From Aliicoccus persicus (lineage in GTDB: Bacteria; Bacillota; Bacilli; Staphylococcales; Salinicoccaceae), in assembly GCF_900110815.1 (NCBI RefSeq), contig NZ_FOIT01000003.1, forward strand, positions 177,213 to 234,243: a stretch of 57,031 bases of DNA, in the 5' to 3' direction. Below, one piece after another: positions 19,369 through 45,285 of the stretch. The notes below the pieces were generated by a model. It had not been told where the DNA came from, made no database searches, and worked only from the letters and a program-made list of their open reading frames with translations. Both the position numbers and the translations under genes were made by a program. How positions within the stretch are numbered: the first letter of the stretch is position 1; the number at the start of each line of letters is the position of its first letter.

Positions 19369-21960
19369 ATGGATATTAACAAAATGACCTACACGATGCA
19401 ATCCGTCATAGAACAGGCACAGCAAATTTCAGTAGACCGGCAATTACAATCCATTGAAGGTGAAGCACTAGTATCCGCATTACTCAATGTGAGTGATAGT
19501 ATGTCTAGAGATATTTTAGAACGTGCCAATATCGATGTAAACAAAATGAATGAAGAACTGGATGAAAAACTGAGTAAGTACAACGTCGTAAAAGGTGACA
19601 ACGTACAGTACGGTCAGTATATGTCATCGAATTTTTCTAAAATTTATGACCGTGCCTTAAAGATCATGGATGAGATGGGTGATGATTATATCTCCCAAGA
19701 GCATGCATTGCTCGCTGCCATTGAAATCGATTCGACACTAAAGGAATTTACAGAAGGAAAAGTACATGTCATAGAAGCTATTATTAAAAAAATAAGAGGG
19801 GGTAATCATGTGACGACACAAAATCCAGAAGTTCAATATGAGGTATTGGAAAAGTATGGTCGTGACCTCGTTCAAGAAGTGCGCCAAGGTAATTTGGACC
19901 CGGTCATCGGTCGAGATGAAGAAGTACGCAACACGATTCGCATACTGAGCCGTAAGCGAAAAAACAACCCGGTATTGATCGGTGAACCCGGTGTGGGTAA
20001 AACTGCAATCGTTGAAGGATTAGCACAGCGCATCGTACGTAAAGATGTACCAGATTCGCTGCTCGATAAGACAATCTTTGAACTCGATTTATCCGCACTT
20101 GTTGCTGGTGCAAAATACCGTGGTGAATTTGAAGAACGATTGAAAGCCGTATTAAAAGAAATTAAAGATTCCGATGGTCGAATTATTCTTTTTATCGATG
20201 AAATTCACATGCTCGTCGGTGCTGGGAAAACAGAAGGTGCGATGGACGCAGGGAATATGTTAAAACCGATGCTTGCTCGTGGTGAGCTTCATTGTATCGG
20301 TGCGACGACATTAAATGAGTACCGTGAATATATCGAGAAGGATTCAGCTTTGGAGCGACGTTTCCAAAAAGTTGTTGTTCCTGAGCCGAATATTGAAGAT
20401 ACGATTTCGATTTTACGCGGATTGAAAGAGCGCTACGAAGTGCACCACGGTGTGCGGATTACAGACCGTGCCCTCGTGGCAGCAGCAGAACTTTCAGACC
20501 GCTACATTACTGATCGATTTTTACCAGACAAAGCGATTGATTTAATGGACCAAGCGAGTGCGACGATCCGTACGGAGATGGGTTCGAATCCGACACAGCT
20601 CGACCAGTTGAATCGCCGAGTCATGCAATTGGAAATTGAAGAAGCTGCGTTAAAAGGGGAGTCCGATTCCGTTTCGCGCATGCGACTCGAAGAATTACAA
20701 AAAGAACTTGCGGATGTCAAAGAAGAGCAAGCGACGATTCAACAAAAATTTGATCATGAGAGAGAACAGATACAACTGATCAATGAAAAGCGTGAATCAC
20801 TCGATAAAGCCCGTCAAGAACTTGAAGATGCTGAAAACAATTATGAACTTGAACGTGCAGCAGAGTTGCGACACGGAAAAATTCCTGCGATGGAGAAAGA
20901 ACTCGAGGATGCGATGTCTGAAATTCAAGATGCTGACGGCAACGAATCGCGTTTAATTCGTGAAGTCTTAACCGAAGATGAAATCGGCTATATCGTGTCG
21001 CAATGGACAGGTATTCCTGTTTCTAAGCTGATTGAGACAGAAAAAGACAAGTTGTTGAAGCTCGATGAAATATTGCATGAGCGTGTTGTCGGTCAAGATG
21101 AGCCTGTCGATTTAGTCGCGAATGCAATTATTAGAGCACGTGCAGGAATTAAAGATCCAGAGCGACCAATCGGTAGCTTCCTATTCTTAGGTCCGACAGG
21201 TGTCGGTAAAACAGAGCTTGCGAAAGCACTCGCTTCAACGATGTTTGATAGTGAAAAGCACATGATCCGAATCGACATGAGTGAATACATGGAAAAACAT
21301 GCCGTATCTCGATTGATCGGAGCGCCACCAGGATACGTCGGTCACGAAGAGGGCGGTCAGCTTACAGAAGCGGTACGTCGCCAACCATACTCAGTCATCT
21401 TGATGGATGAGGTGGAGAAAGCACATGGCGATGTATTTAATATACTATTGCAAATGCTAGACGAAGGGCGATTGACAGATTCAAAAGGTCGCACGGTCGA
21501 CTTTAGAAATACGATTATCATCATGACATCCAACATCGGTTCACCAATATTACTCGATAACGTATCAGAAGAGGGTACGATTGATGAAGAAACAAAAGAG
21601 ATGGTCATGAACGAAGTGCATCGATACTTCAAGCCAGAGATTATCAACCGAATCGATGACATCGTTATGTTCAGTCCTTTATCTCAAGAACATATGACAA
21701 TGATCGTCGATAAAATAATCGAAGAACTCAATGCGAGACTCGTCGCGCAGCATATGGATGTGACGATTAGCGATGCGGTGAAAGCGTGGATCGCAGAAGA
21801 AGCATATGAACCACAGTTCGGTGCCCGACCGTTGAAACGCTTTGTGCAGCGCTATATCGAAACACCACTGGCGAAGAAACTGATTGAAAAAGACATGGCC
21901 GAAGGATTACATGTCGACGTCGATTATGTCGATGGCGAGTTGAAGTTTGAGTTTGTTTAG
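19369..21960 (+). CDS. clpB: ClpB disaggregase (Hsp100)
   Basis: Hexameric AAA+ chaperone that works with DnaK to rescue aggregated proteins. 863 residues: N-domain (1 to about 145), NBD1 with Walker [14 protein letters not shown] (about 202-214) and Walker [15 protein letters not shown] (about 271-284), coiled-coil M-domain (about 400-530), NBD2 with [13 protein letters not shown] (about 606-618) and [11 protein letters not shown] (about 675-685). No ClpP-binding IGF loop is seen, consistent with a disaggregase. CtsR operator and promoter lie directly upstream, and a strong terminator follows. An in-frame GTG at codon 148 has its own excellent ribosome binding site (separate entry). Confidence 0.97.
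19794..19812 (+). promoter_or_regulatory. Putative internal translation start within clpB
   Basis: AGAGGGGG (19794-19802 region) is followed 7 nt later by an in-frame GTG (19810-19812), codon 148. E. coli makes a short ClpB lacking the N-domain from an internal start at about codon 149, so this site is positioned to do the same. Whether it is used cannot be read from sequence. Confidence 0.6.
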
Positions 21961-21988: not shown

Positions 21989-22036
21989 AGGCCCCTATAA
22001 TTGAACGTTTGACGTTCTATTATAGGGGTGTTTTTG
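21989..22036 (+). terminator. Terminator after clpB
   Basis: CCCCTATAAT ... ATTATAGGGG, with an inner GAACGT/ACGTTC pairing, then TGTTTTT. Confidence 0.9.
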
Positions 22037-22039
22037 TAG

Positions 22040-22737
22040 CCTGCTACTTCAGGCATGAAAAAAGGGTGAAGTAGCGGCTTTTTGTTTTTACTGCTACTTC
22101 AGACTGAAAAATGGTGGTGAAGTAGCAGCTTGTTGTTCCCCGCCAATTCAAGCCGAAAAAGTGAGTTGAATTGGCAGCTTTTTGTATTTCCTGCCAATTC
22201 AGGGCTGAAAAGGACTTTGAATTGGCAGCTTTTGAAATTCTCTGCCAACTCAAGGGTGAAAAATACTTTGAATTGGCAGCTTACATATTCATCGCTACTT
22301 CAGATAAAAAATCAGGCTTGAAGTAGCGACTATTTGAACTTATCACTAACTCAGGCCAAGAATTAGCTTTGAAGTAGCGAGGTTGAGAGTCTCGTGCTTA
22401 CTCAGACAAAAAATATGAGGTGAGTAAGCACGGAATGTCGTCTCGTGCTCACTCAGATCAAAAAAGTGCGATGAGTAAGCACGGAATGTCGTCTCGTGCT
22501 CACTCAGATCAAAAAAGTGCGATGAGTAAGCATGGAATCTCGTCTTGTGCTCACTCAGATCAAAAAAACGCGGTGAGTAAGAACGGAATCTCGTCTCGTG
22601 CTCACTCAGACCAAAAAAGTGCGGTGAGTAAGCATGGAATGTCGTCTCGTGGTAACTCAGGTAGAAAAAGCGGCGTGAGTTACCACGATTTGGGATTTCA
22701 TGATAACTCAGATCAAAAAGCGGGGTGAGTAAGCACG
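22040..22737. repeat. 14-unit array of ~51-bp hairpins with changing stems
   Basis: Fourteen hairpins in tandem. Units 8-14 begin at exact 51-bp steps (22390, 22441, 22492, 22543, 22594, 22645, 22696); earlier units step by 49-51 bp. Each unit is a 9-12-bp inverted repeat ending TCA, a 15-16-nt loop containing an A-run then G-rich bases, and a complementary arm starting TGA. Stem sequence changes along the array with both arms changing together: GCTACTTCA/TGAAGTAGC (units 1, 2, 6), GCCAATTCA/TGAATTGGC (3-5), GTGCTTACTCA/TGAGTAAGCAC type (8-12), GGTAACTCA/TGAGTTACC (13). Units 7 and 14 are mismatched. Lies between convergent clpB and ehuA. Small open frames here only reflect the period being divisible by three. 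Confidence 0.9.
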
Positions 22738-22762
22738 GCCCCCAATCTCAATCAAAAACTAT

Positions 22763-22796
22763 ACAAAAATCCCCACACAAACGCGTTGTGTGGGGC
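22763..22796 (-). terminator. Terminator of the ehuBCDA operon
   Basis: Minus strand: CCCCACACAA-cgcg-TTTGTGTGGGG followed by ATTTTT. Confidence 0.85.
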
Positions 22797-22817: not shown

Positions 22818-23669
22818 TTAATCCGCTCTGAATCGTTTCAAGAAGTCTTGTAATCTCGGGTTCTCTGAATGTTCAATGACTTCTGAGGCAGAACCGCTCT
22901 CGGCAATTTTACCGCCATCTAAAAATAGGACGCGGTCTGCAATTTCTAAGGCGAAGTCCATCTCATGTGTTACCATAACCATCGCCATTTCTTCTGTACG
23001 TGCTAAGTCACGGATAACCTCAAGTACTTCACCGACTAGTTCTGGGTCCAGTGCAGATGTTACCTCGTCAAATAGCATGATCTTCGGTTTCATCACAAGC
23101 GCGCGTGCCATTGCGACACGCTGCTTTTGCCCACCAGATAAACTAGACGGATACATATCAAGCTTGTCACCTAACCCGACGCGCGAGAGCATCTCTTTAG
23201 AGAGCTCGATCGCTTCATTTTTAGGCATCTTGCGCACGCTTGTCAATGGCATGACGCAGTTATTCAAAATCGTTTTATGTGGGAACAAGTTAAAGTGTTG
23301 GAACACCATGCCGATGTCATCACGAATGCCATGTAGGTGTTTATCGGAAGCGCGCACCATCTCACCATTTCCTTTTTCCATCTTCCACAAGTTCTCTCCA
23401 TCGACGATAATGTCACCCTCAGACGGTTCTTCAAGCGTCATCAACATGCGGATAATCGTCGTCTTACCAGACCCCGATGGTCCAATAATTGCAATTTTCT
23501 CTGACGGATAAATATCTAAATTGATCCCTTTTAACACATGCACATCACCAAAGGATTTGTGCACATCTTTGTAACTGACAATGGGATTAGCATTGTAGTC
23601 CACTTCTTGTTCTACAACTTCCTCGTCTGTTTGATCCTGTGTTGTCATTTCTTCTTCTCTAGTGGCCAT
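22818..23669 (-). CDS. ehuA: EhuA-type amino-acid/ectoine ABC transporter ATPase
   Basis: Cytosolic ATP-binding subunit of a polar-amino-acid-family importer. Walker A IIGPSGSGKTT (about residues 61-71), Q-loop VFQHFNLFPH, signature LSGGQKQRVAMARAL, Walker B IMLFDEVTSALDP and VTHEMDFAL are all intact. The first 25 residues form an unusual acidic extension (EEVVEQEVDYN region) not needed for the fold. The start codon overlaps the permease stop (TAATG, 1 nt shared). Last gene of the four-gene unit. The EhuA assignment rests mainly on the binding protein and operon order; a general glutamine-type transporter is the alternative. Confidence 0.85.
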   Translation of the reverse strand: MATREEEMTTQDQTDEEVVEQEVDYNANPIVSYKDVHKSFGDVHVLKGINLDIYPSEKIAIIGPSGSGKTTIIRMLMTLEEPSEGDIIVDGENLWKMEKGNGEMVRASDKHLHGIRDDIGMVFQHFNLFPHKTILNNCVMPLTSVRKMPKNEAIELSKEMLSRVGLGDKLDMYPSSLSGGQKQRVAMARALVMKPKIMLFDEVTSALDPELVGEVLEVIRDLARTEEMAMVMVTHEMDFALEIADRVLFLDGGKIAESGSASEVIEHSENPRLQDFLKRFRAD

Positions 23670-25217: not shown

Positions 25218-26474
25218 TTATGCTGCGTCTTCCTCATCTGCTTCTTCTTCATCTACTTCTTCTTCTTCAACTGCCTCTTCTTCATCTGTGTCTACATCTT
25301 CAGCATCATCTTCTGTATCTTCTTCAGAATCAGCTTCTTCTTCAGCTGGAGCACACAGTTCATCTACAGAAACTTCACCAACTTCAACTCTGTTTGCTTC
25401 AGCTGTGAAACCTTCAGCATTATCAAGTATTTCATCGATTGTACCATCTTCGATTAATACCTCAAGTGCTTCATTATATGCATCTCTTAATTCCTCATCA
25501 TCAAGTGCGAATGCAACAGCACCATAACTTGGAATACCATTGATGTCTGGTTGTTCGAAATCTTCAACGATTTCTACTTCGTCGCTACCTAATGATTCGT
25601 AAGCCGCTCTTAATGTATTCTCTGTTGCAGCAGTAACGTCAGCATTACCTGATTGAACTGCAGCAAGCTGCCCTGGAATATCAGCAACTGATAATACTTG
25701 GTTGTCAATGTCCACGCCTTCTTGTTCTAAGAAGTCAAACTGCGTTGTACCTGACATCAGTGCAACAGTGATATCTGGATTATCTGCGATATCAGCATAG
25801 CTGTAAATTTCTTCAGGGTTACCTTCAGCAACAACTAAACCTTCACCGTATTGCATCTCTGGATTTGCAAACAATGCTGTTTCACAACGATCAGGTAAGA
25901 TAGCCATACCTGCTGTAATCGCATCATATTGACCTGCTTGTACACCTGGGATAAGTTCTGCCCAGTCTGTTAAGCGCCCTTCCATTTCAGTGACACCCAT
26001 CTCTTCAAATACAGCAGTAGCAATATCTATTGCTGCACCTTGTAACTCACCAGAATCAGTATCCATGTATGCATATGGTGGTTCATTAGAGAAACCAACG
26101 GATACACCGTTTTCTTGTAACTCTTGAACACGTTCACTTACTTCACCATCATCGCCATTTTCGGCTGTATCAGCGTCTTCATCTTCTTCAGTTGATTCTT
26201 CGTCAGAATCTTCCGCATCTGTATCTTCTTCAGACTCTTCGTCATCAGTTGATTCCTCATCCTCAGCAGATTCTTCGTCCTCGGTCGACTCTTCATCGTC
26301 AGTTGATTCTTCTGAATCTTCTTCTTCTGCTGTTTCTTCCTCATCTACGACCTCTTCTGTTTCAACATCCTCTTCATTATCTCCATTTTCAGCGTCGTCT
26401 CCCTCATCGGCACAAGCACCGAGTAGTAAAACTGCTGATAATGAACTTAACGAAAGTATCTTATATAAAGACAC
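25218..26474 (-). CDS. ehuB: EhuB-like substrate-binding lipoprotein with long acidic linker and tail
   Basis: Lipoprotein: signal peptide with lipobox LLGAC (Cys 21). A stretch of about 95 residues almost entirely Glu, Asp, Ser and Thr follows, then a periplasmic-binding-protein fold of the amino-acid/ectoine class: VGFSNEPPYAYMD, LIPGVQAGQYDAITAGMAILPDRCETALFANP, ALMSGTTQFDFLEQ. A second acidic stretch of about 40 residues forms the C-terminus. The PDRCE-F and C-terminal LCA features resemble EhuB of ectoine/hydroxyectoine transporters, so compatible-solute uptake is the best guess; substrate not proven. The linker codons form a short degenerate tandem repeat. GTG start with AGGAGG about 10 nt upstream. 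Confidence 0.82.
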   Translation of the reverse strand: MSLYKILSLSSLSAVLLLGACADEGDDAENGDNEEDVETEEVVDEEETAEEEDSEESTDDEESTEDEESAEDEESTDDEESEEDTDAEDSDEESTEEDEDADTAENGDDGEVSERVQELQENGVSVGFSNEPPYAYMDTDSGELQGAAIDIATAVFEEMGVTEMEGRLTDWAELIPGVQAGQYDAITAGMAILPDRCETALFANPEMQYGEGLVVAEGNPEEIYSYADIADNPDITVALMSGTTQFDFLEQEGVDIDNQVLSVADIPGQLAAVQSGNADVTAATENTLRAAYESLGSDEVEIVEDFEQPDINGIPSYGAVAFALDDEELRDAYNEALEVLIEDGTIDEILDNAEGFTAEANRVEVGEVSVDELCAPAEEEADSEEDTEDDAEDVDTDEEEAVEEEEVDEEEADEEDAA

Positions 26475-32700: not shown

Positions 32701-33300
32701 TAAACTTGTGAGTCGACAAGTTTACAGTAGGCCCTCTCCCATAAAGTTATGAGTCGACAAGTTTACAGTAGCCCCTCTACCATAAATTTGTGAGAGGACA
32801 AGTTTACAGTGGACCCTGTACCATAAATTTGTGAGACGACAAGTTTACAGTGGACCCTGTACCATAAAGTTGTGAGACGACAAGTTTACAGTAAGCCCTC
32901 TACCATAAAGTTGTGAGACGACTAGTTTACAGTAAGCCCTCTACCACAAAGTTGTGAGACGACAAGTTTACAGTAGGCCCTCTCCCGTAAAGTTGTGAGA
33001 CGACAAGTTTACAGTAAGCCCTCTACCATAAAGTTGTGAGACGACAAGTTTACAGTAAGCCCTCTACCATAAAGTTGTGAGACGACTAGTTTACAGTAAG
33101 CCCTCTACCACAAAGTTGTGAGACGACAAGTTTACAGTAGGCCCTCTCCCGTAAAGTTGTGAGACGACAAGTTTATAGTGGATCCTCTATCATAAAGTTG
33201 TGAGACGACAAGTTTACATTGGACCCTCTACCACAAAGTTGTGTGACGACAAGTTTATATTGGACCGTCTGTCGTAAAGTTGTGACCCCTCAAGTTTATG
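32701..33300. repeat. 15-unit tandem array, exact 41-bp period
   Basis: The TGAG anchor recurs at 32708, 32749, 32790 and so on in exact 41-bp steps to 33282, giving fifteen units. Each unit carries a short inverted repeat (AAACTTGT/ACAAGTTT in the first; AAAGTTGT/ACAAGTTT with one mismatch in most) around a GAGACG-type loop, then CAGTAAGCCCTCTACC. Units starting at 32913 and 33077 are 164 bp apart and share variants (CTAGTTT, then CCACAAAG, then CTCCCGTAAAG), so a four-unit block was duplicated. The last three units are the most divergent. Sequence is unrelated to the other 41-bp family. Confidence 0.95.
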
Positions 33301-43132: not shown

Positions 43133-43200
43133 GTGGTTGTTGGTGGGGTTGCTGGTTTGAGAGGAGGCAGGTTGCGTGAGTGGGGACTATTTGGTATGAC

Positions 43201-43590
43201 CTGCCAATTCAAATGGAAAAACGACTGCGAATTGGCAGTATTTTGCTTTTCCTGCCAATTTAAAGCTAAAATCCACTGTGAATTGGCAGCAATTGATTAT
43301 AACTGCCGATTCAAGAGAGAAAAATGCTCTGAATTGGCAGGGTAAGATTTTACTAGATACTTCTCAGAGCAAGTGATGTCTTCTTTCTCTCTTATGCTCA
43401 CTCACACCAGAAAATCCCGGTGAATGAGCACGGATTCCGGTTTCATGGTAACTCGCGCCCAAAAATCTCGGTGAGTGAGCACGGATTCCGAATTCATGGT
43501 AACTCACGCCTAAAAATCTCTGTGAGTTACCACGATTTCCGGTTTCATGGTAACTCAAGCCCAAAAATCTCTGTGAGTTACCACGAGAAG
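43201..43590. repeat. Second ~51-bp hairpin array (8 units, stems shared with the 22-kb array)
   Basis: Units at 43201, 43252 and 43303 carry CTGCCAATTCA/TGAATTGGCAG-type stems. A degenerate unit near 43353 keeps the phase. Four more, with 5' arms ending at 43404, 43455, 43506 and 43557 (again 51-bp steps), carry GCTCACTCA/TGAATGAGC or GGTAACTCA/TGAGTTACC stems. Loops contain AAAA. The stem classes are the same as in the array 21 kb away. The unit at 43442 pairs a GGTAACTC arm with GAGTGAGC, a mismatched hybrid at the boundary between stem types. 43591-43680 shows nothing further that I can name. Confidence 0.88.
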
Positions 43591-44875: not shown

Positions 44876-45285
44876 GCGTGTCAATGAGCGTTGCTCACAG
44901 ACACGCAGAAAGATTTGACGGACTATGAGATGCACTCACGGACGTGCAAATGGATTTGACGGACTATGAGATGCGCTCACGGTCTTGCAAACGGATTTGA
45001 CGGACTATGAGATGCGCTCACGGTCTTGCAAACGGATTTGACGGACTATGAGATGCGCTCACGGTCGTGCAAATGGATTTGACGGACTATGAGATGCGCT
45101 CACGGACGTGCAAATGGATTTGACGGACTATGAGATGCGCTCACGGTCTTGCAAATGAATTTGACGGACTATGAACTACTCTCACTGACGCGCAGATTGA
45201 TTTGCGTTCCAATGAGCGTTGCTCACAGACACGCAAACGGATTTGCATTCCAATGACCCTAGCTCATAGACACACAAACCCACAC
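44876..45285 (+). repeat. 10-unit array of the dispersed 41-bp hairpin repeat
   Basis: Ten units in exact 41-bp steps (44876, 44917, 44958, 44999, 45040, 45081, 45122, 45163, 45204, 45245), each ending near GGATTT. Unit 1 has long near-complementary arms: GCGTGTC-aa-TGAGC, GTT, GCTCA-ca-GACACGC. Units 2-8 are a derived form (GACGGACTATGAG ... CTCACGG). Units 9-10 return to GCGTTCCAATGAG, matching the copies at 119, 14708 and 56961. Lies between convergent genes and is the only hairpin-rich sequence available after trpS and the DUF438 gene. Confidence 0.92.

Follow-up and report, generated by a model that had tools for sequence, protein, structure and literature searches.

Among the described repeats of bacteria, the tandem REP, or BIME-2, arrays of the enterobacteria come closest to the array considered here, and passages of PMC2817692 report that they bind both DNA gyrase and IHF. 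The GTAG- and CGTC-tagged REP superfamilies are described in passages of PMC3733652 as palindromic, of high copy number, and located mostly between convergent and codirectional genes, with loops of 2–5 nt in most families and longer, partly paired loops in some; that paper's main text contains neither the word Firmicutes nor staphylococc-. In Aliicoccus persicus (Staphylococcales, Salinicoccaceae), we describe arrays whose defined and rigid geometry is found again in several genera, belonging to two orders of Bacilli; in two genera, the arrays prefer the gaps between convergent genes. The chances seem about even that such an array is a DNA lattice at gene ends that is read by a putative architectural protein.

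The window, that is, the whole 57,031-nucleotide stretch of A. persicus DNA that was analysed, contains 14 tandem inverted-repeat units at 22039–22738 (Table 1), and TRF reports the array as two blocks with a period of 51 (22040–22282 and 22389–22738), in agreement with the 14 tandem hairpin-like repeats claimed in an earlier note on this DNA. That note had placed seven of the hairpins in exact 51-bp steps; the series of steps is 50, 49, 51, 51, 50 and then eight times 51 (exactly 51 in 10 of 13). Its constant loop plan is also confirmed, as the loop is 16 nt in 12 of the 14 units and 15 nt in the other two. The statement that each unit still folds does not apply to all units to the same degree, since the two hybrid units at 22341–22382 and 22698–22738, whose arms come from different classes, are paired at 8 of 11 positions (counted on the unit rows), and units 9–12 have a C·A mismatch in common. 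A second array of seven units, absent from that note, lies at 43199–43586, and in both arrays the hybrid units are placed at class changes. An alignment of all 21 units spans 42 columns, two rows having a single gap each, and follows a plan of an 11-nt arm, a 16-nt loop with a central A-tract, and a second 11-nt arm. Within the genome as a whole, arm classes occur in blocks and comprise A (GCTNACTC and GGTAACTC), B (GCCAATTC), and C (GCTACTTC). The note's author knew of no named element with this plan, and none has come to light: Rfam gave no match at its gathering score in the window, and no description of such arrays appeared among the top results from the open-access literature. No tRNA or tmRNA was found in the window. 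The first array sits between separate terminator-like hairpins, one on each side; the clpB 3′ inverted repeat (21992–22036) is absent from the output of the terminator scan, and its T-run was read from the sequence.

Table 1. Features of the two arrays in the window and of the first array's neighbours, with positions counted from the first letter of the window.
Feature	Position	Strand	Basis
clpB, upstream neighbour of the first array	19369..21960	+	ORF; AAA and ClpB_D2-small domains
Inverted repeat I2 with T-run before the array, probable intrinsic terminator of clpB	21992..22036 (repeat 21992–22028 plus tail)	+	17-nt arms, 94%
Units 1–5: GCTACTTCA, then GCCAATTCA / GCCAACTCA half-sites	22039..22281	+	
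Unit 6 (GCTACTTCA class) and unit 7, hybrid (left arm ends TAACTCA, right arm TGAAGTAGC)	22290..22382	+	
Units 8–12, class A, GTGCTYACTCA-N16-TGAGTAAGCAC	22392..22637	+	
Unit 13, GTGGTAACTCA-N16-TGAGTTACCAC	22647..22688	+	
Unit 14, hybrid: left arm ATGATAACTCA, right arm TGAGTAAGCAC	22698..22738	+	
Terminator-like hairpin beside the facing ABC-transporter gene	22771..22795	-	Terminator scan
ABC transporter ATP-binding protein gene, convergent neighbour	22818..23669	-	ORF; PF00005
First block of the second array, with three units of class B (CTGCCAATTCA and variants) at 51-bp steps	43199..43342	+	
Second block of the second array, with four units of class A, one of them a hybrid (43443–43484)	43392..43586	+	

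Other repeats also occur in the window and in loci fetched for comparison. A 14-copy, 41-bp tandem array at 32701–33285 (TAAAGTTGTGAGACGACAAGTTTACAGTAGGCCCTCTACCA), each unit of which is an imperfect hairpin, lies directly upstream of a NERD-domain gene, and a unit resembling this repeat recurs in locus L076 (3850–4188). A further 41-bp array at 44912–45279 (GATTTGACGGACTATGAGATGCGCTCACGGACGTGCAAATG and relatives) has convergent genes on either side, and repeats seemingly of the same family are found near 51-bp arrays in L055, L057, L067, L070, L071, L077, and L080. Beside the usual units of L201 (2136–2278), and also in L121, there is a 51-bp repeat with another half-site (CGTTTAGAT...ATCTAAACG), which would therefore represent a further class with a common period. 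Finally, short tandem repeats at 25223–25337 and 26181–26312, with periods that are mostly multiples of three, lie near minus-strand ORFs (25218–26474) and are probably coding.

The earlier note had proposed a covariance search of related genomes, and this search yielded matches in all six genomes examined from a second genus of the family, in four further genomes of the order, and in G380, a genome from another order. In the A. persicus genome itself, a covariance model built from the window units gives at least 146 matches at E up to 0.01, and at least about 30 arrays of this kind are present; the 30 loci fetched from it contain 192 units kept for analysis, in 34 groups, while 38 loci fetched from the second genus contain 164; 19 units that had been picked up on both strands are left out of these numbers. 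At least 11 of 157 genomes of the order match a two-unit model (A. persicus, the six of the second genus, G025, G060, G062, and G079), as do at least 3 of 398 sampled genomes of the class, including G380 with 57 matches at E up to 0.01. The searches score limited candidates per genome (150 with the window model in A. persicus, 28 in the order, and 11 in the class), so these counts are lower bounds and absences are soft; similarly, the loci counted here (30 from A. persicus, 38 from the second genus, 8 from G025, G060, and G079, and 15 from G380) are fewer than the known arrays. Plain DNA similarity to the window array was found in 0 of 39 other genomes, and models were therefore needed to find relatives, whereas a scan by geometry only was too loose and was dropped. 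The element is patchy among Bacilli, and genomes with different outer arms may escape the models. When genome contigs were scanned by pattern, 29 of 35 matching stretches lay in Salinicoccus or Lacicoccus, and the six in unrelated organisms are taken as chance. A phage origin was rejected, in that no viral contig had a two-and-a-half-unit lattice pattern and only one had a single class A match, an exact match to the hairpin pattern (L188, 1485–1520) that is probably due to chance.

This dispersed and patchy distribution, together with the mosaic of class blocks, could be explained by selfish, BIME-like repeats, i.e., non-autonomous palindromes that are amplified by a putative enzyme, which would also set their geometry, and that are tolerated at gene ends. 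A. persicus L077 and second-genus L122 fit such an origin, as they have one gene block in like order with the array in different convergent gaps. We nevertheless consider it improbable. The Y1 transposase domain PF01797 was absent from 10 of the 11 array genomes of the order, A. persicus among them, and the sole match was a contig-end fragment (the same search found matches in 5 of 14 control genomes); mobilisation by a RAYT is unlikely because this transposase is wanting. Moreover, some array sites are common to lineages, including A. persicus L061 with L121 and L134 (one flank) and G025 L201 with L126 (both flanks), and the spacing is rigid across a large divergence.

It is this spacing that is conserved: 18 bp between half-site cores, and a step of 51 or 52. 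In A. persicus, 177 of 192 units have a loop of exactly 16 nt and 122 of 149 neighbour pairs have a step of exactly 51; in the second genus, the corresponding counts are 154 of 164 and 112 of 125. The unit finder accepted loops of 13–19 and extended arrays within 4 of 51, and the covariance-model seeds had no step limit. Neighbouring loops, however, differ at 5.8 (A. persicus) and 5.3 (second genus) of 16 positions, and rigid loop and step despite such divergent loop sequence count in favour of a protein-read lattice. So does the geometry of G380, where 91 of the 92 units kept have an ACTC–GAGT spacer of 18 (range searched, 14–33) and the step is 52 in 69 of 75; three chance pairs with spacers of 19, 22, and 29 were dropped, and one of the 15 fetched loci, L236, gave no unit. 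Exact GCTCACTC...GAGTGAGC pairs, for which spacers of 10–40 were allowed, tell a similar story, with a spacer of 18 in 12 of the 13 listed among 15 matches in A. persicus, and in 2 of 2, 4 of 4, and 1 of 1 in G011, G060, and G062, respectively. In G079, the spacer is instead 28 in eight of nine such pairs and 30 in one, while the other spacer stays at 17, and at least four of the nine have a second A-run 11 bp past the first. Spacers alternate 17/18 in G060 and 17/28 in G079, which gives two G079 arrays a period of 61 and a third array one of 63.

These few cases suggest that spacing changes tend toward about 10 bp, that is, whole helical turns. The irregular steps of A. persicus (70, 71, 71, 82, 82, 91, 91, and 92, plus 41.5 with a doubtful unit) give a resultant of 0.92 at a period of 10.2, although a period of 10.0 fits equally well and perhaps five of the nine are independent, because L067/L072 and L070/L076 are likely copies of one layout. 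Other tandem arrays in the fetched A. persicus loci have a period of 41, as do those of the window (32701–33285 and 44912–45245), and this fits a series of about 10.2 bp per turn. The spacer of 28 in place of 18, the irregular steps, and the periods of 41 and 61 all count for the lattice, and helical phasing of the arrays is likely. Against the lattice are the small number of whole-turn cases, an A-tract phasing inside the unit that is suggestive but falls short of significance (of 2000 rotations, 139 and 209 were equally strong), and exceptions to the period in fetched loci, namely 89-bp and 35-bp repeats and the 63-bp array of G079; periods of 30, 33, 36, and 42 were taken for coding repeats.

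Recently duplicated tandem arrays would keep their period without selection, which also counts against the lattice and leads to a further explanation, in which the arrays are neutral minisatellites formed by tandem duplication of an ancestral palindrome, with a period kept by inertia and a location set by the lack of constraint. Some arrays do have near-identical neighbours (L136 and L202), and orthologous arrays differ in copy number, with four units in L117, six in L125, and eight (one of them doubtful) in L135. This origin is very unlikely, however, given that neighbouring loops differ at about one-third of positions with almost no change in length, that the core and the 18-bp spacer are common to two orders, and that arrays in two genera are strongly enriched in convergent gaps.

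Location relative to genes was compared within the same loci, using simple ORFs of at least 100 aa; groups of one unit and gaps not bounded by genes on both sides were excluded, which kept 32 of 34 groups in A. persicus and 32 of 38 in the second genus. Arrays occupied convergent gaps in 18 of 32 cases in A. persicus, as opposed to 11 of 123 other gaps (Fisher, 3e-8), and in 19 of 32 cases in the second genus, as opposed to 8 of 106 (Fisher, 3e-9), while divergent gaps held 1 of 32 and 0 of 32 arrays, respectively. This excess in two genera counts for the lattice, whereas the weak preference seen elsewhere counts against it. In G380, 4 of 17 arrays were in convergent, 12 in codirectional, and 1 in divergent gaps, with 3 of 32 other gaps convergent; for the loci of G025, G060, and G079, the ORF list gave three convergent, four codirectional, and two divergent positions. 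A 112-aa ORF is the basis for one of the two divergent calls, and in G079 the arrays with divergent neighbours number one or two. Among the ORFs near arrays, grouped in clusters without annotation, no family stood out as a common DNA-binding protein, and ten proteins scanned against Pfam had ordinary domains.

A location at gene ends would also suit RNA hairpins, in which case the transcribed array would fold into tandem hairpins that act as multiple intrinsic terminators or as protectors of 3′ ends. Some arrays do start less than 30 nt from the end of an ORF, and in A. persicus a T-run (at least 5 T of 9) often follows units of class B (22 of 46) and class C (21 of 38) on the strand with the A-rich loop. 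However, class A units mostly lack such runs (13 of 108), the T-runs of the second genus are on the opposite strand (79 of 164, versus 6 of 163 on the A-rich-loop strand), and between the window array and the gene on either side stands a separate terminator-like hairpin. Loops of 16 nt are, moreover, unusual for terminators.

Covariation of the arms also counts for hairpins. As the earlier note had claimed, the stem changes class with both arms together: pair cells are standard in 90.9% over the 21 window units, and covariation is 0.385, where shuffling gives a mean of 0.161 and slid partners do not exceed 0.115. Covariation within classes likewise exceeds shuffles after removal of units more than 90% alike or with more than five mispaired positions. 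The note's argument against plain duplication of one stem is sustained. Among 52 pairs of differing neighbour units, the arms of one unit agree at 9.2–9.3 of 11 positions and those across the linker at 6.9, a comparison in which finding units partly by pairing favours agreement within the unit; the hairpin-shaped unit therefore travels together in this genome. These pairing data include chance hairpins that remain at array edges in the 192 and 164 units (at least the clpB terminator in L068 and others in L060, L069, L126, L127, L131, and L139), as well as three L141 units whose arms belong to another class.

A palindromic protein site likewise gives covarying arms, and the note's further claim that the fold, rather than the sequence, is preserved does not follow from covariation. 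It had named compensatory change as the check on its structure claim, and arms do covary above shuffles, but the two registers score nearly alike: the unit register is 91.3% paired with a score of 0.405, and the across-linker register is 89.7% paired with a score of 0.370, so near that the statistic mostly reports neighbouring half-sites of one class, although the unit register is favoured where neighbours differ. The innermost pair shows no covariation in class A, B, or C. In the second genus, arm position 5 is paired in 75 of 116 cases (67.7 expected) and position 10 in 52 of 116 (60.1 expected), while position 7 is C·A in 58 of 160 units, identical ones being counted once, yet partly covaries (68, with 45.2 expected). 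Mismatches also recur in G380, where the pair beside the core is Watson–Crick in 3 of 30 units of class alpha and 3 of 29 of class beta and is A·A in 8 of 11 of class gamma. G-U is commoner than A-C, at a ratio near 1.5 to 1, in A. persicus (102:69), the second genus (134:86), and G380 (49:31), which points modestly to RNA; much of the A. persicus excess is due to one position, the innermost, with G·T in 65 of 196 distinct units and A·C in 16, and other mismatches in G380 (121) outnumber G-U (49).

The predicted minimum-energy fold of the array RNA keeps only 5 of the 14 unit hairpins, in mixed registers, and although the 701-nt RNA folds well below shuffles (z of -13.3 from 20 shuffles), such a result is to be expected of any array of palindromes. 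Arrays of G060 and G079 (family f3) tend to start and finish in the other register, and the half-site lists of L203, L204, L206, L207, and L208 open and close with an R-17-F pair, i.e., in the other register relative to the window, with L202 and L205 being less clean. Together with the rigid spacing, these observations make RNA hairpins an unlikely explanation, and the array probably has no conserved RNA fold. Even so, covariation within classes, the G-U excess, and a palindromy kept through class change, as a hairpin requires, count against the lattice.

If the array is a lattice read by protein, it would consist of short, sequence-specific half-sites on double-stranded DNA in alternating orientation, each made up of an inner core and a class-specific outer arm; the core would be ACTC/GAGT in class A and in G380, and classes B and C would have ATTC or CTTC, each with its complement. 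Half-sites would follow one another about every 25–26 bp, or 2.5 helical turns, the 18-bp spacer would contain an A-tract, and equivalent half-sites would recur every five turns (51–52 bp). A dimeric or wrapping DNA-binding protein would occupy such a lattice in a manner dependent on the helical face and bend the DNA at the A-tracts. An array at a gene end may then have the role proposed for BIME-2 of E. coli, in which an architectural or insulating block keeps read-through and the spill of supercoils between facing genes in check. Unequal exchange within the A-rich loops would allow arrays to grow, change class, and leave hybrid units behind. A wider and more speculative possibility is that scattered lineages from at least two orders of Bacilli carry a chromatin-like lattice in helix register (41, 51/52, or 61 bp). 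A putative, as yet undescribed architectural protein would read it and so mark or insulate the ends of genes, and one genome would contain several half-site “dialects,” each perhaps with its own paralogue.

Were the arrays indeed bound by protein, they would constitute a large and undescribed class of chromosomal sites in Gram-positive bacteria, with tens of arrays in A. persicus, and would lend themselves naturally to studies of how facing transcription units are kept apart in bacteria. Spacings of 18 versus 28 bp and of 51 versus 61 bp offer, in addition, a ready-made helical-phase experiment.

Compared with known systems, the arrays have something in common with intrinsic terminators, in that about half of class B and C units likewise combine a stem with a T-run, but class A and second-genus units mostly lack a tail on that strand, and the window array is flanked by terminator-like hairpins of its own. 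The likeness to BIME-2 and tandem REP arrays is closer, as both are intergenic, tandem mosaics of regularly spaced inverted elements of several types, and, judged on simple ORF calls, the arrays described here are extragenic with regularly spaced, alternating elements as REP/BIME arrays are. With the tagged REP superfamilies they share palindromic form, high copy number, and a location chiefly in convergent and codirectional gaps. They differ from BIME-2 in the absence of a GTAG end tag, in a 16-nt loop, in belonging to another phylum, and in a spacing locked at 51, 52, or 61. Column frequencies show that units mostly start with CTGC or GTGC and finish with GCAG or GCAC, with GTAG found only inside the class C right arm, so that neither GTAG nor CGTC stands at the palindrome end; the short loop usual in the tagged REP superfamilies is absent as well, as is, in 10 of 11 array genomes, their association with a transposase. 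The arrays are thus BIME-like in role, yet stand apart from REP elements in tag, loop, and transposase.
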